A stretch of 13,398 bases of DNA, taken from NCBI GenBank assembly GCA_903920405.1, contig CAIXMC010000144.1:1-13398 (forward strand). Reading direction: 5' to 3'. Positions 2,193-13,364 of the stretch are shown here, piece by piece (the first letter of the stretch is position 1; every line of letters begins with the position of its first letter). This DNA comes from an uncultured beta proteobacterium (lineage in GTDB: Bacteria; Pseudomonadota; Gammaproteobacteria; Burkholderiales; Burkholderiaceae_C). The position numbers and the translations under genes are program-made. The notes beneath the pieces were generated by a model. The model was not told the DNA's origin and searched no databases. It was given only the letters and a program-made list of their open reading frames with translations.

Positions 2193-3785
2193 TCACGCCC
2201 CCCAAACACCAATCACACGCTGCCCCACCATTTCATCGCGCTGCCAAATCCGCTCATCCCATGACCTATCGGGGTGGCGGTCAAAAATGATCAAATGTGA
2301 TTCATCTGCACCGCAGCGGTCAGCATAGTCAGCCGTTTGCACCAAGCCCTGTTTCGTCGTGGTTTCCAGACTTTGGTGCAAAATTTTGAGTTCAATCACC
2401 ACGCGCTGCACCGCACCCAAATAGCCCAAAGCCTCATCGACAGGCCATTCCAGAAAGAGGTCGGTTCGTCTGCGCCCCAGGCCATATTCGCGATTGATTC
2501 GACCGCCGCCGTTCACAATGCGCTGCAAAAAGGCTTGGAGCAGCAATTGCGGGCCGGCTTCCTTGTAGTCAAACTTTTCCAGCCAGGCGTCCGAGTTTTC
2601 TCGAAAGAACTGTTGGAATGCAGTCAGCAGTTTTTTCATATCCAAATGGCGGCGGGCATCCAGATACCAGGGTTGTTGGTGAGCAATGACCACCTGCGCC
2701 GGCCAGGTGAGTTCACGCGGAATGATTTCACGGTAGATGCGATTGGAAATGGTCAGCATGGGCCTTTGGCAAATCAGCCCCAGGTCTTCAACGTATTGCA
2801 GGTCATCGGTTGAAAAATGGTCAGATACAAACTCGCCTTCCAAAAGCGCCGCCACAATGCCATGCACCCTTGGTTCTTTCAATTTGTCGGCCAGTTGATC
2901 CAGGTGCGTGGCACGACTTTGAATCAGTCGTTCACGAGCCGCTTTGTAGCGCTCCAATGTGATGGGTGTGCTGGGGTCACGCGCTGAGCGGTCGTTCCAG
3001 GTCACTTCATACCCCAAGGCATTGACCAGCCAGGGTTGTCCTGTGGTGTCTTGCCACAGCTCTGGGTAAATGGCTTTGTCTATCAACTGGCCAGTGGCAT
3101 CTTCATGCTGCTGCCACAGCGCTTGTGTTTCATCGGGGGTGAGGTTGCCCAGACGAAGCGACACGGCCTTGATGTTAAAAGCCGAACCGCCGGTGATGAT
3201 CTCGTGATGGGCGGTGTGAATGCGGTAATCGCGCACATCACGAACGCCGCACAAAATCATCGCCTGCGGAAAAGCCTCTGGCCGCTGGGCGTAACCGGCG
3301 CGAATCTGGCGCAAAAGCGAAATCAAAGTGTCGCCCACCAGTGCATCGACTTCATCGAGCAACAAAATCACAGGCTTATCGGTGGTTTGCGCCCAGTAGG
3401 CCAGCAGGCGCGACAAGCGGTTGCCCGCAGGAGTATGTTCGCCTTCTTGTTCCAGCCAGTCAATCAATCGATTGTTTTTCAGGTAAAGACCGGCTGCATG
3501 GGCAATGACATTACCAATAATCGCCACGCCAGCACTCATATCACCCCGCGCCGCTTGTGCGCCTTCAATGTTGGCATAGAGTACACGGTACTGCCCCTTT
3601 GCGTTGATGTGGTGCATCAGTGCCAACAGAGAGGTCGTCTTGCCAGTCTGCCTGGGGGCGTGCAGAACAAAGTAACGCTTGTCATCGATCAGCGATTCAA
3701 CTTCTGGCAAGTCGAATCGCGTGAGCGGGTCAATCATGTAATGGTCGCCTACGATGGACGGGCCGGCTGTGTTGAATTTTTTCAT
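2193..3785 (-). CDS. P-loop ATPase with C-terminal PD-(D/E)XK nuclease-like domain, paralog 2
   Basis: This 530-residue protein has the same architecture as the downstream paralog: PRQTGKTT P-loop (about 44-51), LLLDEVDAL Walker B, central winged-helix-like segment, and C-terminal RTDLFLEW plus VVIELK nuclease motif. By eye it is about 95% identical to paralog 1 over most of its length, but two segments differ strongly. These are residues ~81-130, between the P-loop and Walker B, and ~316-368, flanking the winged-helix-like region. All visible catalytic motifs are intact in both, so neither copy looks dead. The ATG at 3785 follows CACACACCTCC, which is not a usable Shine-Dalgarno sequence. 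A family B element lies 73 bp upstream and may contribute the promoter region; that is inference. Confidence 0.9.
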   Translation of the reverse strand: MKKFNTAGPSIVGDHYMIDPLTRFDLPEVESLIDDKRYFVLHAPRQTGKTTSLLALMHHINAKGQYRVLYANIEGAQAARGDMSAGVAIIGNVIAHAAGLYLKNNRLIDWLEQEGEHTPAGNRLSRLLAYWAQTTDKPVILLLDEVDALVGDTLISLLRQIRAGYAQRPEAFPQAMILCGVRDVRDYRIHTAHHEIITGGSAFNIKAVSLRLGNLTPDETQALWQQHEDATGQLIDKAIYPELWQDTTGQPWLVNALGYEVTWNDRSARDPSTPITLERYKAARERLIQSRATHLDQLADKLKEPRVHGIVAALLEGEFVSDHFSTDDLQYVEDLGLICQRPMLTISNRIYREIIPRELTWPAQVVIAHQQPWYLDARRHLDMKKLLTAFQQFFRENSDAWLEKFDYKEAGPQLLLQAFLQRIVNGGGRINREYGLGRRRTDLFLEWPVDEALGYLGAVQRVVIELKILHQSLETTTKQGLVQTADYADRCGADESHLIIFDRHPDRSWDERIWQRDEMVGQRVIGVWGA

Positions 3786-3858
3786 GGAGGTGTGTGGTTG
3801 GGCTGCGTCCGAATGTGGGGGTACTATCTCACACCAACTTAAGTTCTTTCAGATTGTG

Positions 3859-3961
3859 GGCTTCCCACTTAAGGCGGGACAAATTGCAATGTAGCGACGG
3901 CAACTGACTTCGTATGAATCGGCTTGCGACTTCATTTTTGTCCCGCCTTAAGTGGGAAGCC
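3859..3961. mobile_element. Family B palindromic MITE-like element, copy B2 (complete)
   Basis: This 103 bp element has 25 bp perfect terminal inverted repeats: left arm 3859-3883 (GGCTTCCCACTTAAGGCGGG then ACAAA), right arm 3937-3961. The ~53 bp interior carries the GCAACTGACTTC block also found in B1. It has no coding capacity. No target-site duplication is evident in the flanks (...AGATTGT and AGTTTTTTGG). It stands between the ATPase pair and the lptE side of the window, upstream of ATPase paralog 2. I do not recognise the arm as the end of a known IS. Confidence 0.8.
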
Positions 3962-3969
3962 AGTTTTTT

Positions 3970-4038
3970 GGTATAACAAATCGGCCTCTAGCGCCCGTCC
4001 TGCTTGCATAGTTAGCTATTTTTTTAATAGTAAAAATA
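3970..4038. repeat. Dispersed ~60 bp repeat (TAGCGCCCG...GCTTGC...TAGCTAT type) with terminal hairpin
   Basis: The core TAGCGCCCG (3989-3997) is followed at fixed spacing by GCTTGC and TAGCTAT (4015-4021). The same arrangement, without gaps, lies inside leuS at about 5234-5297. On the right, CTATTTTT (near 4017-4024) and AAAAATAG (4032-4039) can form a hairpin. I recall repeats of this kind as abundant in Comamonadaceae genomes; that is memory, not a search. Its placement downstream of lptE could let the hairpin act in transcript 3'-end formation, which is inference. Confidence 0.6.
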
Positions 4039-4056
4039 GGCAAACACATTCGCCAA
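4024..4056 (-). CDS. Possible 10-codon mini-ORF with a good Shine-Dalgarno sequence
   Basis: On the minus strand AAGGAGA (4062-4068) is followed after a normal spacing by TTG at 4056. That opens a frame encoding MANVFAYFYY and ending in TAA at 4024. The ORF overlaps the hairpin of the dispersed repeat. A strong ribosome-binding site before so short a frame may be coincidence, a leader peptide, or a remnant of a gene start that once followed lptE. There is no homology evidence, so treat it as a candidate only. Confidence 0.2.
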   Translation of the reverse strand: MANVFAYFYY

Positions 4057-4110
4057 ACTCGTCTCCTTGTATGCGGCCAAGTTGACTTCTCCACATCACT
4101 TTGAATCGCA

Positions 4111-4176
4111 CCTAATCCTAATCCTAATCCTAATCCTAATCCTAATCCTGATCCTGATCCTGATCCTGATCCTGAG
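4111..4176. repeat. Hexanucleotide microsatellite, 11 units
   Basis: Six CCTAAT units (4111-4146) are followed by four CCTGAT units (4147-4170) and one CCTGAG (4171-4176). On the coding strand of the neighbouring genes this reads ATTAGG/ATCAGG. It begins only 6 bp past the lptE stop codon. The two blocks of unit types fit slippage after a T-to-C (or reverse) change in one unit. A 6 bp unit does not shift a reading frame, so it is not a classic on/off phase-variation tract, but its length could alter the lptE 3' end. Confidence 0.97.
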
Positions 4177-4182
4177 TTGCCA

Positions 4183-4713
4183 TCAAAATAGCTTGACTGT
4201 CGCCAAACGGCGCATGATTTGTTGCACGATGTCGGTCTGCATATCGCGGTAGAGCAAAATTTCTTCAGCCTCTTTGGCAAGGGCGGCGGACTCGTTGTAG
4301 CTGATGTCACGCTGCTGCAAAATCTCATTTTCAGCCCATATCTCTCGGCCTTGTGGCGTTGTCAGACTGAATTTGACACGGTTGCGCAACTGAAATTCGC
4401 GAACCTGACCTGACGCATTCACCCCCACCACTGTTTTTTCTCGCTGCTCACTCAACACGTTCATGACCAATTGAGCTTGCGTCAGCGGATCATGGGGTTT
4501 GAGAACGTTGACCGCGCTGCCCAAGGAACGCCGCAGTTCTTGTGCCACGGCACTGCCCGGGTAGGGCGTGATGGCAATGCTGGAGAAGGCGAATGCCAGG
4601 TTGCCGCGCAGATGAAAGCCGCAGCCAGTCAATAGCCCCAACACCAAAAGTGCCCACACCAGACTTAGTTTGGGCAAGCCCATATTTCCAATGCCGACAA
4701 GACAAAACTTCAT
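4183..4713 (-). CDS. lptE: LPS assembly outer-membrane lipoprotein LptE
   Basis: LptE is the lipoprotein plug of the LptD/LptE outer-membrane translocon that inserts lipopolysaccharide. The protein (176 residues from the ATG at 4713) begins with a hydrophobic signal segment ending in the lipobox LTGC, with the acylated cysteine at residue 31, followed by GFHLRG, the typical mature start. I chose ATG 4713 over an in-frame GTG at 4719 because AAGG (4721-4724) is 7 bases before the ATG but only 1 base before the GTG. leuS ends at 4723, so the two are tightly coupled. holA (DNA polymerase III delta subunit) normally follows lptE in Betaproteobacteria but is not present here; repeats begin at once after the stop codon. 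Confidence 0.93.
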   Translation of the reverse strand: MKFCLVGIGNMGLPKLSLVWALLVLGLLTGCGFHLRGNLAFAFSSIAITPYPGSAVAQELRRSLGSAVNVLKPHDPLTQAQLVMNVLSEQREKTVVGVNASGQVREFQLRNRVKFSLTTPQGREIWAENEILQQRDISYNESAALAKEAEEILLYRDMQTDIVQQIMRRLATVKLF

Positions 4714-4722
4714 GGTCACACC

Positions 4723-7422
4723 TTACACCACCAGATTGACCAGTCTGCCCTTCACCACAATCACCTTTTTGGGGATAGCCCCCGGTGCCACTCTTCTAAA
4801 AACATCGCTGTGAATAGCCGCCTGCTCAATGGCTGTGGTGTCGGCGCTTGTACTCACCACAATGGAGCCGCGCAGTTTGCCATTGACTTGCAGCATCATT
4901 TCAATGTCATCTTGCACCAGGGCCTGTGGGTCCACCCTGGGCCAAGAGGCATCAAGCAAATCGCCCATCACATGGGCATAACCCAACGCTTCCCACAAGA
5001 CATGGGCAATGTGCGGGGTAACAGGGTACAAGCAGCGCAACAAAATAGAGAAACCTTCCATCAGCGCCTCTTTGGCACCTGCGTTGTCTGTGGCCTTAAA
5101 GTCATCGAGCGCGTTGATCATTTTCATGACACCGCTGACGACTGTGTTGTATTGCATGCGCTGATAGTCGTTGTCCACCTGTTTGAGAACACTGTGAATG
5201 GTGCGCCGCAATGCCTTGGCTTTAGTGCCAAAATTTATATCAAAAAGGGCTGTAGCGCCCGCCAGGCTTGCGTTGGTAGCTATGTTATCAGTAGCGTATA
5301 GCTTGACGGCAAAGTTCCAGACGCGACGTAAAAATCTGTAACTGCCCTCGACTGAGGCATCGTTCCATTCAAGCGTGGCTTCAGGCGGGGCGGTGAAGAT
5401 GGTGTAGATGCGTGCTGTATCTGCTCCATACTTTGCGATCAAATCCTGCGGATCCACCCCGTTGTTTTTGGATTTTGACATGGTGCCTATGCCTTCATAG
5501 TCAATGGGCGTGCCCACAGGCAAATCGCCCACAGTGTGGATGAGCCTGGCATTTGTGACCCTGCCGGCTTCATCACTCACCTGTTCCACGTCATGGGGCC
5601 AAAAATAATCCTTGCCACCTTGATGGGTGCGGCGTGAATAGATATGGTTGAGCACCATGCCCTGGGTTAGCAATTGGGTGAAGGGTTCGTCCACTTTGAC
5701 CAAGCCCATGTCTCGCATGACCTTGGTCCAAAAACGTGCATACAGAAGATGCAAAATGGCGTGTTCAATGCCGCCAATGTACTGGTCCATCGGCATCCAG
5801 TAGTCTGCCCCAGCGCCGACCATGGCCTGGTCATTGTGGGGGTCGCAGTAGCGCATAAAGTACCACGCGCTATCGACAAAGGTGTCCATGGTGTCGGTTT
5901 CACGTCGCGCTTTTTTGCCGCAGAGGGGACAAGTCACACCCGCATGAAAGCCTTCGTGCCGGTGCAGTGGATTGCCAGAGCCATCAGGAATGCAATCTTG
6001 GGGCAATACCACCGGCAGGTCTTTTTCAGGCACGGGAACGGCACCGTGTTCGTCACAGTGGATGATGGGAATGGGGGTGCCCCAATAACGCTGGCGCGAT
6101 ATACCCCAGTCGCGCAGCCGCCAGGTGACTTTTTTCTCGCCCAGCCCCATGGCGGTCAAGTCAGACAGAACGGCCTTGACACATTCACTAAAAACCAGCC
6201 CGTCATATTTGCCCGAGCAGATGGCGACACCGCTGCCTTTTTCGGCATACCAGTCTTGCCAGACCGAAGTATCAAACGCCTGATTGGCCACACTCACGAC
6301 TTGCTGAATGGGAAGTTGGTATTTCAAGGCAAAGGCAAAATCGCGTTCGTCATGCGCTGGTACGCCCATCACAGCACCATCGCCATAGCTCATCAGCACA
6401 TAGTTGCCTACCCACAGGGCCACAGGCTCTTGTGTTAAGGGGTGTGTGACAAACAGGCCGAGGGGCATGCCTTCTTTTTCCTTTTGGGCAAGTTCGGCCT
6501 CGGTCGTCCCGCCTTTTTTGCATTCTTCAATAAACGCTGCCAGAACAGGGTTGGAAGCTGCTGCGTGCGTGGCTAAGGGATGCTCTGGAGCGACTGCGCA
6601 AAACGTGACGCCCATGATGGTGTCGGCGCGGGTGGTAAACACAAACATACGGCCATTACCAATCAAAGCGCCATCTGCACTTTGAATGTCATGCGTGAAG
6701 GCAAAGCGAACGCCTTCGCTTTTGCCAAGCCAGTTGTCTTGCATCAGTTTGACGCGATCAGGCCAGCCGGGCATATTGTTGCCGGTGACATTGGCCAAAA
6801 GCTCTTCAGCGTAGTCAGTGATTTTGAGGTAATAACCCGGAATTTCACGCTTTTCAACCACTGCGCCTGTGCGCCATCCCTTGCCGTCAATCACCTGTTC
6901 GTTGGCTAGCACGGTTTTGTCAATGGGATCCCAATTAACAATTTGAGTTTTGCGGTACGCAATGCCACGTTCGAGCATCTTCAAAAACAGCCACTGATTC
7001 CACTTGTAATACTCAGGCGTGCAGGTGGCAATTTCACGGCTCCAATCAATGGCCAAGCCCATCGCATTCATTTGTTGGCGCATGGTGGCAATGTTGTCAA
7101 ACGTCCACTGGGCAGGAGGCACACCGTTTTTCAGCGCTGCATTTTCAGCAGGCAAACCAAAAGCATCCCACCCCATAGGCATCAACACGTTGTAGCCATT
7201 CATGCGCAAATAGCGTGTGAGCATGTCGTTGATGGTGTAGTTGCGCACATGGCCCATGTGTAGCTTGCCGCTGGGGTAGGGCAACATGGAGCAGGCGTAA
7301 AACTTCTTTTTGGGCTGGCCCTGGGCATTTTGCGCGTTTTCGGTCACCCGATAGGCGTCCATGGCCTGCCAATGTGCCTGCGCTGTTTTTTCAATGTCTT
7401 GAGGGAGGTATTTGTCTTGCAT
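4723..7422 (-). CDS. leuS: Leucyl-tRNA synthetase
   Basis: This class I synthetase charges tRNA-Leu with leucine in the cytoplasm. The 899-residue protein carries the HIGH-type motif HMGH (55-58) and an editing domain with the threonine-rich TTRADT (near 262-267) and VPAHDERDF (near 355). A zinc-binding-like insertion includes CPLC, and the KMSKS-type motif is MSKSK (648-652). The C-terminal part holds the anticodon-binding domain. It is somewhat longer than the ~860 residues usual in Enterobacteria. Part of the excess is a block near residues 708-732 ([14 protein letters not shown]...) that is encoded by a dispersed repeat. The start fits the family ([11 protein letters not shown]). lptE follows after 3 bp. 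A family A element lies ~90 bp upstream, between leuS and phoB. Confidence 0.98.
5234..5297. repeat. Dispersed ~60 bp repeat inserted in frame inside leuS
   Basis: The core TAGCGCCCG (5253-5261), then GCTTGC and TAGCTAT (5277-5283), aligns without gaps to the intergenic copy at 3970-4038. On the coding strand it adds about 20 residues (around [18 protein letters not shown]) between the conserved VWNFAVKLY and KALRRTIH segments of LeuRS. The frame is kept and no stop is introduced. Confidence 0.7.
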
Positions 7423-7511
7423 GGCAATCCATCGTGGGGGCTTGATAAGGCGAAAAGAGGTGAGAGCGTTGTCCGCAGCAACAATCTATGAAGATATCAG
7501 CGTTGATTTTA
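7423..7511. other. leuS upstream region
   Basis: This 89 bp stretch lies between the leuS start and the family A element and should hold the leuS promoter if leuS is not read from phoB. I see no convincing -35/-10 pair and only a weak purine stretch (GATGG) before the ATG. No T-box or leader peptide rich in leucine codons is visible. Confidence 0.35.
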
Positions 7512-7671
7512 GGATGTGGTTTGCAATAAGTTGTGCATTTGGCTCGTCAGATCTGGGCGCACTGCGTCGTTACAAATCGCTTATGTGGCTAGGCCACACC
7601 GCACGATTTGCGCCTGGCATTGCATCTTTAACTCTGACGGCCAAATGCACAACTTATTGTTGACCCTATCC
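7512..7671 (-). mobile_element. Family A palindromic MITE-like element, copy A2 (complete, inverted relative to A1 and A3)
   Basis: This 160 bp element begins GGATGTGG and ends CCCTATCC, with TTA directly repeated on both sides (7509-7511 and 7672-7674), as expected for a 3 bp target duplication. The arms pair over about 40 bp. A central hairpin is formed by TGTGGC and GCCACA (near 7581-7595). Compared with A1 and A3, the arm carries TTGTGCATTTGG on one side and CCAAATGCACAA on the other, so the difference is mirrored in both arms. It sits 37 bp past the phoB stop codon, where phoR would be expected. Its strong hairpin could end pst-pho transcription, which is inference. Confidence 0.88.
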
Positions 7672-13202: not shown

Positions 13203-13361
13203 GGATATGGTCAGTAATAAGTTCCCCATTTGGCCGTCAGAGTAGGGATGCAATGCTAGGCGCAAATCGCGCGGTGTGGCCATGCCACATAAGCGATTTG
13301 TAACGACGCAGTGCGCCGAATTCTGACGAGCCAAATGCGGAACTTATTACTGACCACATCC
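13203..13361 (+). mobile_element. Family A palindromic MITE-like element, copy A3 (complete)
   Basis: This 159 bp element begins GGATATGGTCAGTAATAAGT and ends in the near-perfect inverse. The two ~39 bp arms differ at two positions and one indel. Between the arms are two unpaired 22 nt stretches, an AAATCG/CGATTT stem and the central hairpin GTGTGGC-cat-GCCACAT, so the whole element can fold as one long hairpin. TTA precedes it (13200-13202) and TTT follows (13362-13364). The surrounding sequence is an older copy whose uninterrupted form reads CGCTTATGTGGC, consistent with insertion at TTA. No ORF is convincing. Confidence 0.88.
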
Positions 13362-13364
13362 TTT

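Follow-up and report, generated by a model that had tools for sequence, protein, structure and literature searches.

The window studied here is a 13,398-nt stretch of DNA from an uncultured beta proteobacterium. Using named loci of relatives, it was placed among Rhodoferax (Comamonadaceae), with L149 (apparently from the sister genome G087) as its nearest relative. The features that matter for the analysis are the following.

4723..7422, minus strand: leuS, leucyl-tRNA synthetase (LeuRS), an intact open reading frame of 899 codons
about 5236..5295, minus strand: in-frame copy of a dispersed repeat in leuS, LeuRS residues about 710-730, repeat forward frame 1
3966..4040, minus strand: intergenic copy of the same repeat, belonging to a young own-genome subfamily (45.1 bits; covariance-model match 3973-4032)
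3859..3961, no strand assigned: inverted-repeat unit of 103 bp, its 25-bp ends perfectly inverted (GGCTTCCCACTTAAGGCGGGACAAA)
4183..4719, minus strand: lptE-like gene downstream of leuS, open reading frame of 178 aa

The leuS product has Leucine--tRNA ligase 6q89 as its top solved homologue (1040 bits). For the lptE-like gene the name is one that we presume from sequence and gene order. Directly downstream of it, tandem 6-bp units (CCTAAT, then CCTGAT) occupy 4111-4176. Two adjacent and similar minus-strand genes at 401-1990 and 2193-3785 (529 and 530 aa, with repeat blocks 73-91% identical) look, by eye, as if they encoded AAA-ATPase-type proteins. A repeat of 116-138 nt was seen at 1-138, 7508-7626 and 13226-13363. 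Its first and last occurrences lie at the two ends of the contig, the middle one separates leuS from a phoB-like gene, and the repeat is probably the reason why the contig ends there.

A repeat search of the window revealed that positions 3972-4030 and 5236-5294 are 75% identical over 59 nt without a gap. This agrees with a preliminary description of the DNA, in which about 60 bp of leuS had been found to match the intergenic repeat with fixed spacing. The leuS copy was scored with a profile (C) made from 32 dispersed copies at loci L091-L118 in other genomes of the genus. This profile holds no leuS, own-genome or sister-genome loci, and one of its 32 copies is a native MutL look-alike. Here, the leuS copy reached 32.0 bits (E=1.7e-7, 160 leuS loci searched), and the match covered offsets 33-83 of the junction, corresponding to about 5246-5295. 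The first profile had held the sister genome's leuS copy and the native MutL motif (L102/628-675). A further profile (D), derived from alignment A2 without the MutL piece and without the copies of the Rhodoferax genome G032, was used for the counts in G032, in the own genome and in RlmI, and for ranking the LeuRS rows by codon positions 1 and 2.

Within the own genome, the best non-self match of the leuS copy was 82% identical over 49 nt (E=3.6e-7, among the best 40 of 46 candidates). Agreement of the window copy with the repeat consensus, counted on the 126-nt junctions and out of 18 in each case, is 13 at codon position 1 and 12 at each of positions 2 and 3. The 36 rows at or above 14 bits, which were picked by DNA match, agree on average at 11.6, 12.9 and 11.5 of 18. 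Since agreement extends to all three codon positions, the homology exists at the DNA level and goes beyond peptide likeness. The leuS segment, which lies in frame, thus represents one copy of a dispersed repeat about 64 nt long. Excess third-position conservation at the junction was considered as a sign of gene conversion and set aside. Four-fold identity was 0.731, compared with 0.479-0.732 in eight other leuS stretches (duplicates and rows under 14 bits left out), and nothing was drawn from these values because the rows had been preselected by repeat match.

An alanine-rich loop might resemble the repeat simply by accident of composition. The LeuRS junction is indeed alanine-rich and variable, and the native MutL motif had entered the first profiles as just such a look-alike. 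However, the E-value given above was obtained with a leuS-free profile, and third codon positions match as well. A reversed-sequence decoy made from G032 contig C2 (its first 800 kb) gave no match at or above 12 bits. In 400 kb of the repeat-poor Rhodoferax G016 a single match of 20.2 bits was found, with no open reading frame over 120 aa across it. We therefore regard a chance resemblance as hardly credible.

In the AlphaFold model of LeuRS, computed from a 31-row alignment, the segment links two helices formed by residues 688-709 and 733-754. A short helix (714-720) and coil lie between them. The mean pLDDT is 71.6 for the model and 57 for the blocks 711-720 and 721-730, and in the nearest solved LeuRS homologue a somewhat shorter stretch is aligned at the segment. 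We take the two helices to be the first two of the LeuRS anticodon-binding bundle. As two bundle helices flank it, the segment is not situated at the junction of the catalytic body and the anticodon-binding domain, where it had originally been placed. It lies in a variable loop; its limits, first given as residues ~708-732, had to be corrected to about 710-730.

Across 60 copies from G032, information is raised from the first model position to about 63-64, which sets the length of the repeat. The consensus has AT-rich ends, 48% GC, two of six frames open and a conserved TAGC/GCTA pair without covariation. Its fold is restricted to a 4-bp stem (-0.43 kcal/mol), none of whose 4 pairs is changed on both sides in a 28-copy alignment. 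Copies are dispersed in large numbers. A covariance model found at least 149 matches in one of five Rhodoferax genomes and at least 150 in each of the other four (E<=0.05). Using a hand-made consensus in BLAST, the repeat was detected in 63 of 80 genus genomes (E<=1) and in 27 of 120 genomes sampled from the GTDB family (E<=0.01). A search of window positions 3801-5500 against Rfam returned 4 matches at E<=5, all under the gathering score.

Y1 transposases were checked in 80 genomes, and no helper for the spread of the repeat was found among them. RAYT (Y1) transposases are not supported in this role: PF01797 is present in 71 of the 80 genomes, several of them without a repeat match, and G087 carries the repeat but lacks PF01797. 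One of the two Y1 loci of the own genome has a weak repeat match of 13.5 bits nearby.

The own genome contains a young subfamily; with the intergenic copy as query, identities were 91-100% among the best 40 of 106 candidates. Many of these young copies (L002-L006, L008, L060, L087, L066, L089) have further bases in common on one or both sides, and these common flanks show that the 64-nt repeat here belongs to a longer unit that has been amplified. Next to the intergenic copy of the window, the 103-bp unit stands in place of the flank common to most other copies (flanks of 14 copies). It may have been inserted into the longer repeat unit to which the other copies belong. One end of the 103-bp unit recurs at 257-282. 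Given such young copies, the leuS segment could likewise be a recent insertion in the window's own lineage. Yet its identity with the young intergenic copy is no more than 75%, and the sister genome as well as many Rhodoferax carry the leuS copy at identical codons. A recent insertion is thus very improbable.

Among the 160 leuS loci, 46 match in the LeuRS junction, 40 of them at 12 bits or more, and 45 have a 126-nt junction; a few genomes are counted twice here, by a G locus and a named locus. All 45 junctions match in a single register and frame; they come from Rhodoferax and some other Comamonadaceae. The old copies hence share position, frame and register. L210, from a Polaromonas MAG, has a 147-nt junction and a weak match of 15.0 bits located 12 nt further on than in the other junctions; this may be a copy that arose independently in that loop. 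For the LeuRS tree (FastTree, junction left out) rows with more than 35% gaps and identical rows were dropped, leaving 145 rows in which a few genomes still occur twice. Repeat DNA is present in 34 rows at or above 12 bits, a line of our own choice; 54 rows lack it at equal or nearly equal length, and 57 are shorter. Repeat-bearing rows are located in several separate parts of the Comamonadaceae, including Rhodoferax antarcticus, R. bucti, a Curvibacter MAG and a groundwater Burkholderiales MAG. The well-supported branches of the tree cannot be reconciled with fewer than 13 changes of matching state, and a single acquisition consequently has repeated re-acquisition as a competitor.

Same-length junctions without repeat-like DNA were found in Acidovorax, Delftia, Variovorax and others, and shorter junctions (99-117 nt) occur in some Rhodoferax. 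All 12 rows from other families of the order are short: the anchors are 87-114 nt apart, which is 4-13 residues fewer, and there is no peptide trace. Ranking each gene's stretches for repeat likeness at codon positions 1 and 2 put the junction first in 23 of the 59 same-length rows without a DNA match, within the top five in 36 and outside it in 23. It ranked first in 7 of 61 short rows, Polaromonas among them, and reached the top five in none of the 12 other-family rows (ranks 10 to 472). The net gain at the LeuRS site amounts to about 7-9 residues (about 24 nt) over 8 of the 12 outgroup rows. This is far below the length of the element, so that plain insertion alone is insufficient for the site. 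About 20 added residues peculiar to this lineage, as first proposed, do not fit these data: all 45 matching 126-nt junctions share one register, and many repeat-free relatives are equally long, often with a peptide trace. Conservation of the segment in distant repeat-free relatives, which had been named as an argument against insertion, was encountered in part, as far as length is concerned, in Acidovorax, Delftia, Variovorax and others, but 23 of 59 such rows keep the top codon signal there.

The LeuRS copy is one of many copies of the repeat inside genes. With a profile lacking G032 copies, the first 800 kb of G032 contig C2 yielded 77 copies at or above 20 bits: 36 in genes, 13 at gene edges and 28 intergenic. 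Genes were taken from a simple gene caller with a coding fraction of 0.889; compared with this fraction, genes are avoided relative to chance but are far from spared. At least 15 residues remain on both sides in 32 of the 36 in-gene copies, and 24 of the 36 are read in the two frames that are open in the consensus. Spread of the repeat through coding sequence, as the preliminary description had supposed, is supported by these in-frame copies. In-frame protein repeats are best known from Rickettsia. In this one Rhodoferax, the density over the 800 kb counted is about one copy per 10 kb, close to half of the copies lie in genes, and they reach enzymes of replication, repair and translation.

Thirty of the 32 copy-bearing G032 genes were compared with NCBIfam, leaving out AddB, which crosses the fetched boundary, and RlmI. 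A family was obtained for 17 of the 30 proteins; for 13 there was none at cut-offs of 1e-70 or 1e-40. The families include MoeA, DnaX, AddA (three copies), XseA, an RND adaptor, CoaBC, MutL, an acyl-CoA ligase type, PepN, guanine deaminase, UvrD, TrpF, a HemD type, DNA polymerase IV, KefC and AroE, some of these assignments being below the family cut-off. The copy in PolA is weak (21.4 bits). Replication and repair are prominent among the copy-bearing genes, with dnaX, uvrD, mutL, xseA, addA, DNA polymerase IV, polA and, by eye, an addB-like gene.

A sample of the own genome (40 contigs, 234,477 bases) contained 20 copies, of which 4 lie in genes, 1 at an edge and 15 between genes. Other in-gene cases of this genome, at loci chosen by likeness to the leuS copy, are MetH, HrpA and GspL. 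RpoN is likely to be a further one: NCBIfam points to an excess of 25 residues, and the case is unproved because the solved homologue does not align at the site. In MetH (own genome) and in XseA (another Rhodoferax), the repeat peptide corresponds to residues absent from solved homologues. In ProA (50 orthologues from 80 loci), L163 and L171 carry repeat DNA in a loop of which most other orthologues have a short form. In L152 there is a comparable insert at the peptide level only, and the longer loops of L165, L169 and L202 are of uncertain origin. MetH, XseA and ProA all show clear net length gains.

A different picture emerged for RlmI, which in the own genome carries a 37.8-bit repeat copy on a native helix. 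This site is the gene's top repeat-like stretch (codon positions 1 and 2) in 26 of 28 complete Rhodoferax rows. A 29th, truncated Rhodoferax row ranks 44, and 12 outgroup rows rank 6 to 165. At the site the outgroups L391 and L396 are equal in length, and other outgroups are longer or shorter. Since the repeat in RlmI brings no net gain over equal-length outgroups, insertion alone is no explanation. AroE, TrpF, CoaBC and a conserved MutL motif resemble RlmI (20 to 36.5 bits), all four with little excess over the family profiles despite the repeat match. These data suggest that replacement rather than insertion took place at some sites, RlmI among them.

Transferred to LeuRS, this would mean that repeat DNA took the place of a native loop of equal length, possibly several times, through short-DNA recombination with partly matching sequence. 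The equal length of many LeuRS relatives without repeat DNA is in line with such an event, as are the RlmI helix with its two equal-length outgroups and the small excess at the other same-length sites, the conserved MutL motif included. The clear net gains in MetH, XseA and ProA speak against it, however, and some of the weaker same-length matches, at 20-23 bits, may be native look-alikes. We consider replacement in leuS rather unlikely, and are equally doubtful that conversion contributes to the spread of the repeat alongside insertion. Only tentatively can we propose that it spreads in part by overwriting loosely similar coding sequence in register with gene length unchanged (RlmI, AroE, TrpF and part of LeuRS). 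If this were true, pieces of the core proteome, essential proteins included, would have been rewritten in genus or family ancestors by conversion-like spread. RlmI makes the choice between insertion and replacement directly testable.

That leuS and rlmI both match in frame genus-wide, and that same-length relatives without repeat DNA exist, could also be read as a sign that the repeat family began as a mobilised piece of one of these genes. Several genes match equally well, however, so that at most one could be the source. The segment is moreover absent from the 12 LeuRS rows of other families, and the repeat occurs in 27 of the 120 sampled GTDB-family genomes. An origin in leuS or rlmI is thus improbable.

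We favour as the probable explanation that the leuS segment is an old repeat copy that an ancestor of much of the Comamonadaceae acquired once and in frame, at a small net gain, and that has been tolerated and eroding since. A non-autonomous dispersed repeat of about 64 nt would have entered leuS there, adding about 7-9 residues, and the segment would have been retained as a tolerated connector joining two helices of the anticodon-binding bundle. The copy would still be recognisable as DNA in many Rhodoferax, including the window. In GC-rich relatives, synonymous sites would have drifted and left at most peptide traces, and elsewhere the LeuRS loop would have been shortened. The family would have been spreading ever since by a helper acting in trans, often into genes in frame, while selection would keep in-frame copies in tolerant places and presumably purge others. 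We infer that the acquisition was single, that the segment is neutral and that the spread of the repeat depends on a helper. As the LeuRS and RlmI copies can be traced from DNA-recognisable to peptide-only, the turning of selfish DNA into ordinary protein sequence becomes observable.

Known systems are compared here on the basis of parts of the cited sources. REPs are described inside open reading frames of several bacteria, among them genes for tRNA synthetases and many that serve DNA replication and repair (PMC3733652, Di Nocera 2013). In-frame REP-like repeats, tRNA synthetases included, are hence already known. A repeat in a tRNA synthetase is accordingly not unusual, contrary to what was first thought: three other bacteria have REPs in such genes (PMC3733652), and many other genes carry the same repeat here. 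Our repeat has both traits of the broad kind of in-frame intragenic dispersed repeats (RPE/REP-like), namely many copies per genome and in-gene, frame-keeping copies. With GTAG/CGTC REPs it shares the intragenic position and the occurrence in repair genes (PMC3733652), here uvrD, mutL, xseA, addA, dnaX, DNA polymerase IV and, weakly, polA. It differs in having no strong stem-loop (4-bp stem, -0.43 kcal/mol) and in that Y1 transposases do not track it; on the consensus, read by eye only, no GTAG/CGTC tag was recognised at the stem foot. The main text of PMC3733652 contains no occurrence of Rhodoferax, Acidovorax, Polaromonas or Comamonadaceae.

RPE are, like our repeat, short dispersed repeats found in frame in many unrelated genes (PMC10969869, PMC3733652). 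By description they are set apart by their length of about 150 bp and their obligate intracellular hosts, compared with about 64 nt, a weak palindrome and Comamonadaceae in our case. BRE is a betaproteobacterial dispersed repeat of Bordetella, Polaromonas, Rhodoferax ferrireducens and others, and some of its copies also lie in coding sequences (PMC3110155). Its description gives 75-91 bp at full length, 69% GC in Bordetella and 4 copies in R. ferrireducens (PMC3110155), which distinguishes it in length, GC and copy number from a repeat of about 64 nt with 48% GC and at least 149 matches in each of five Rhodoferax genomes. Enterobacterial ERIC and RU elements are likewise MITE-like with reported intragenic copies (PMC10969869, PMC2759123), but RU elements are described as longer (103-168 bp) and from other hosts. 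The mentions of 'palindromic' in the available part of the R. ferrireducens genome paper concern CRISPR (PMC2755013). In the portions of the literature searched, no description of the 64-nt family was found.

A second variable insertion site in LeuRS was seen near window residues 376-386 in L039-L042 and L044, and also in L017, L018, L019 and L043. The inserts at this site in several Rhodoferax, for example PGSSDASSTSSPG, are unlike the 64-nt repeat.
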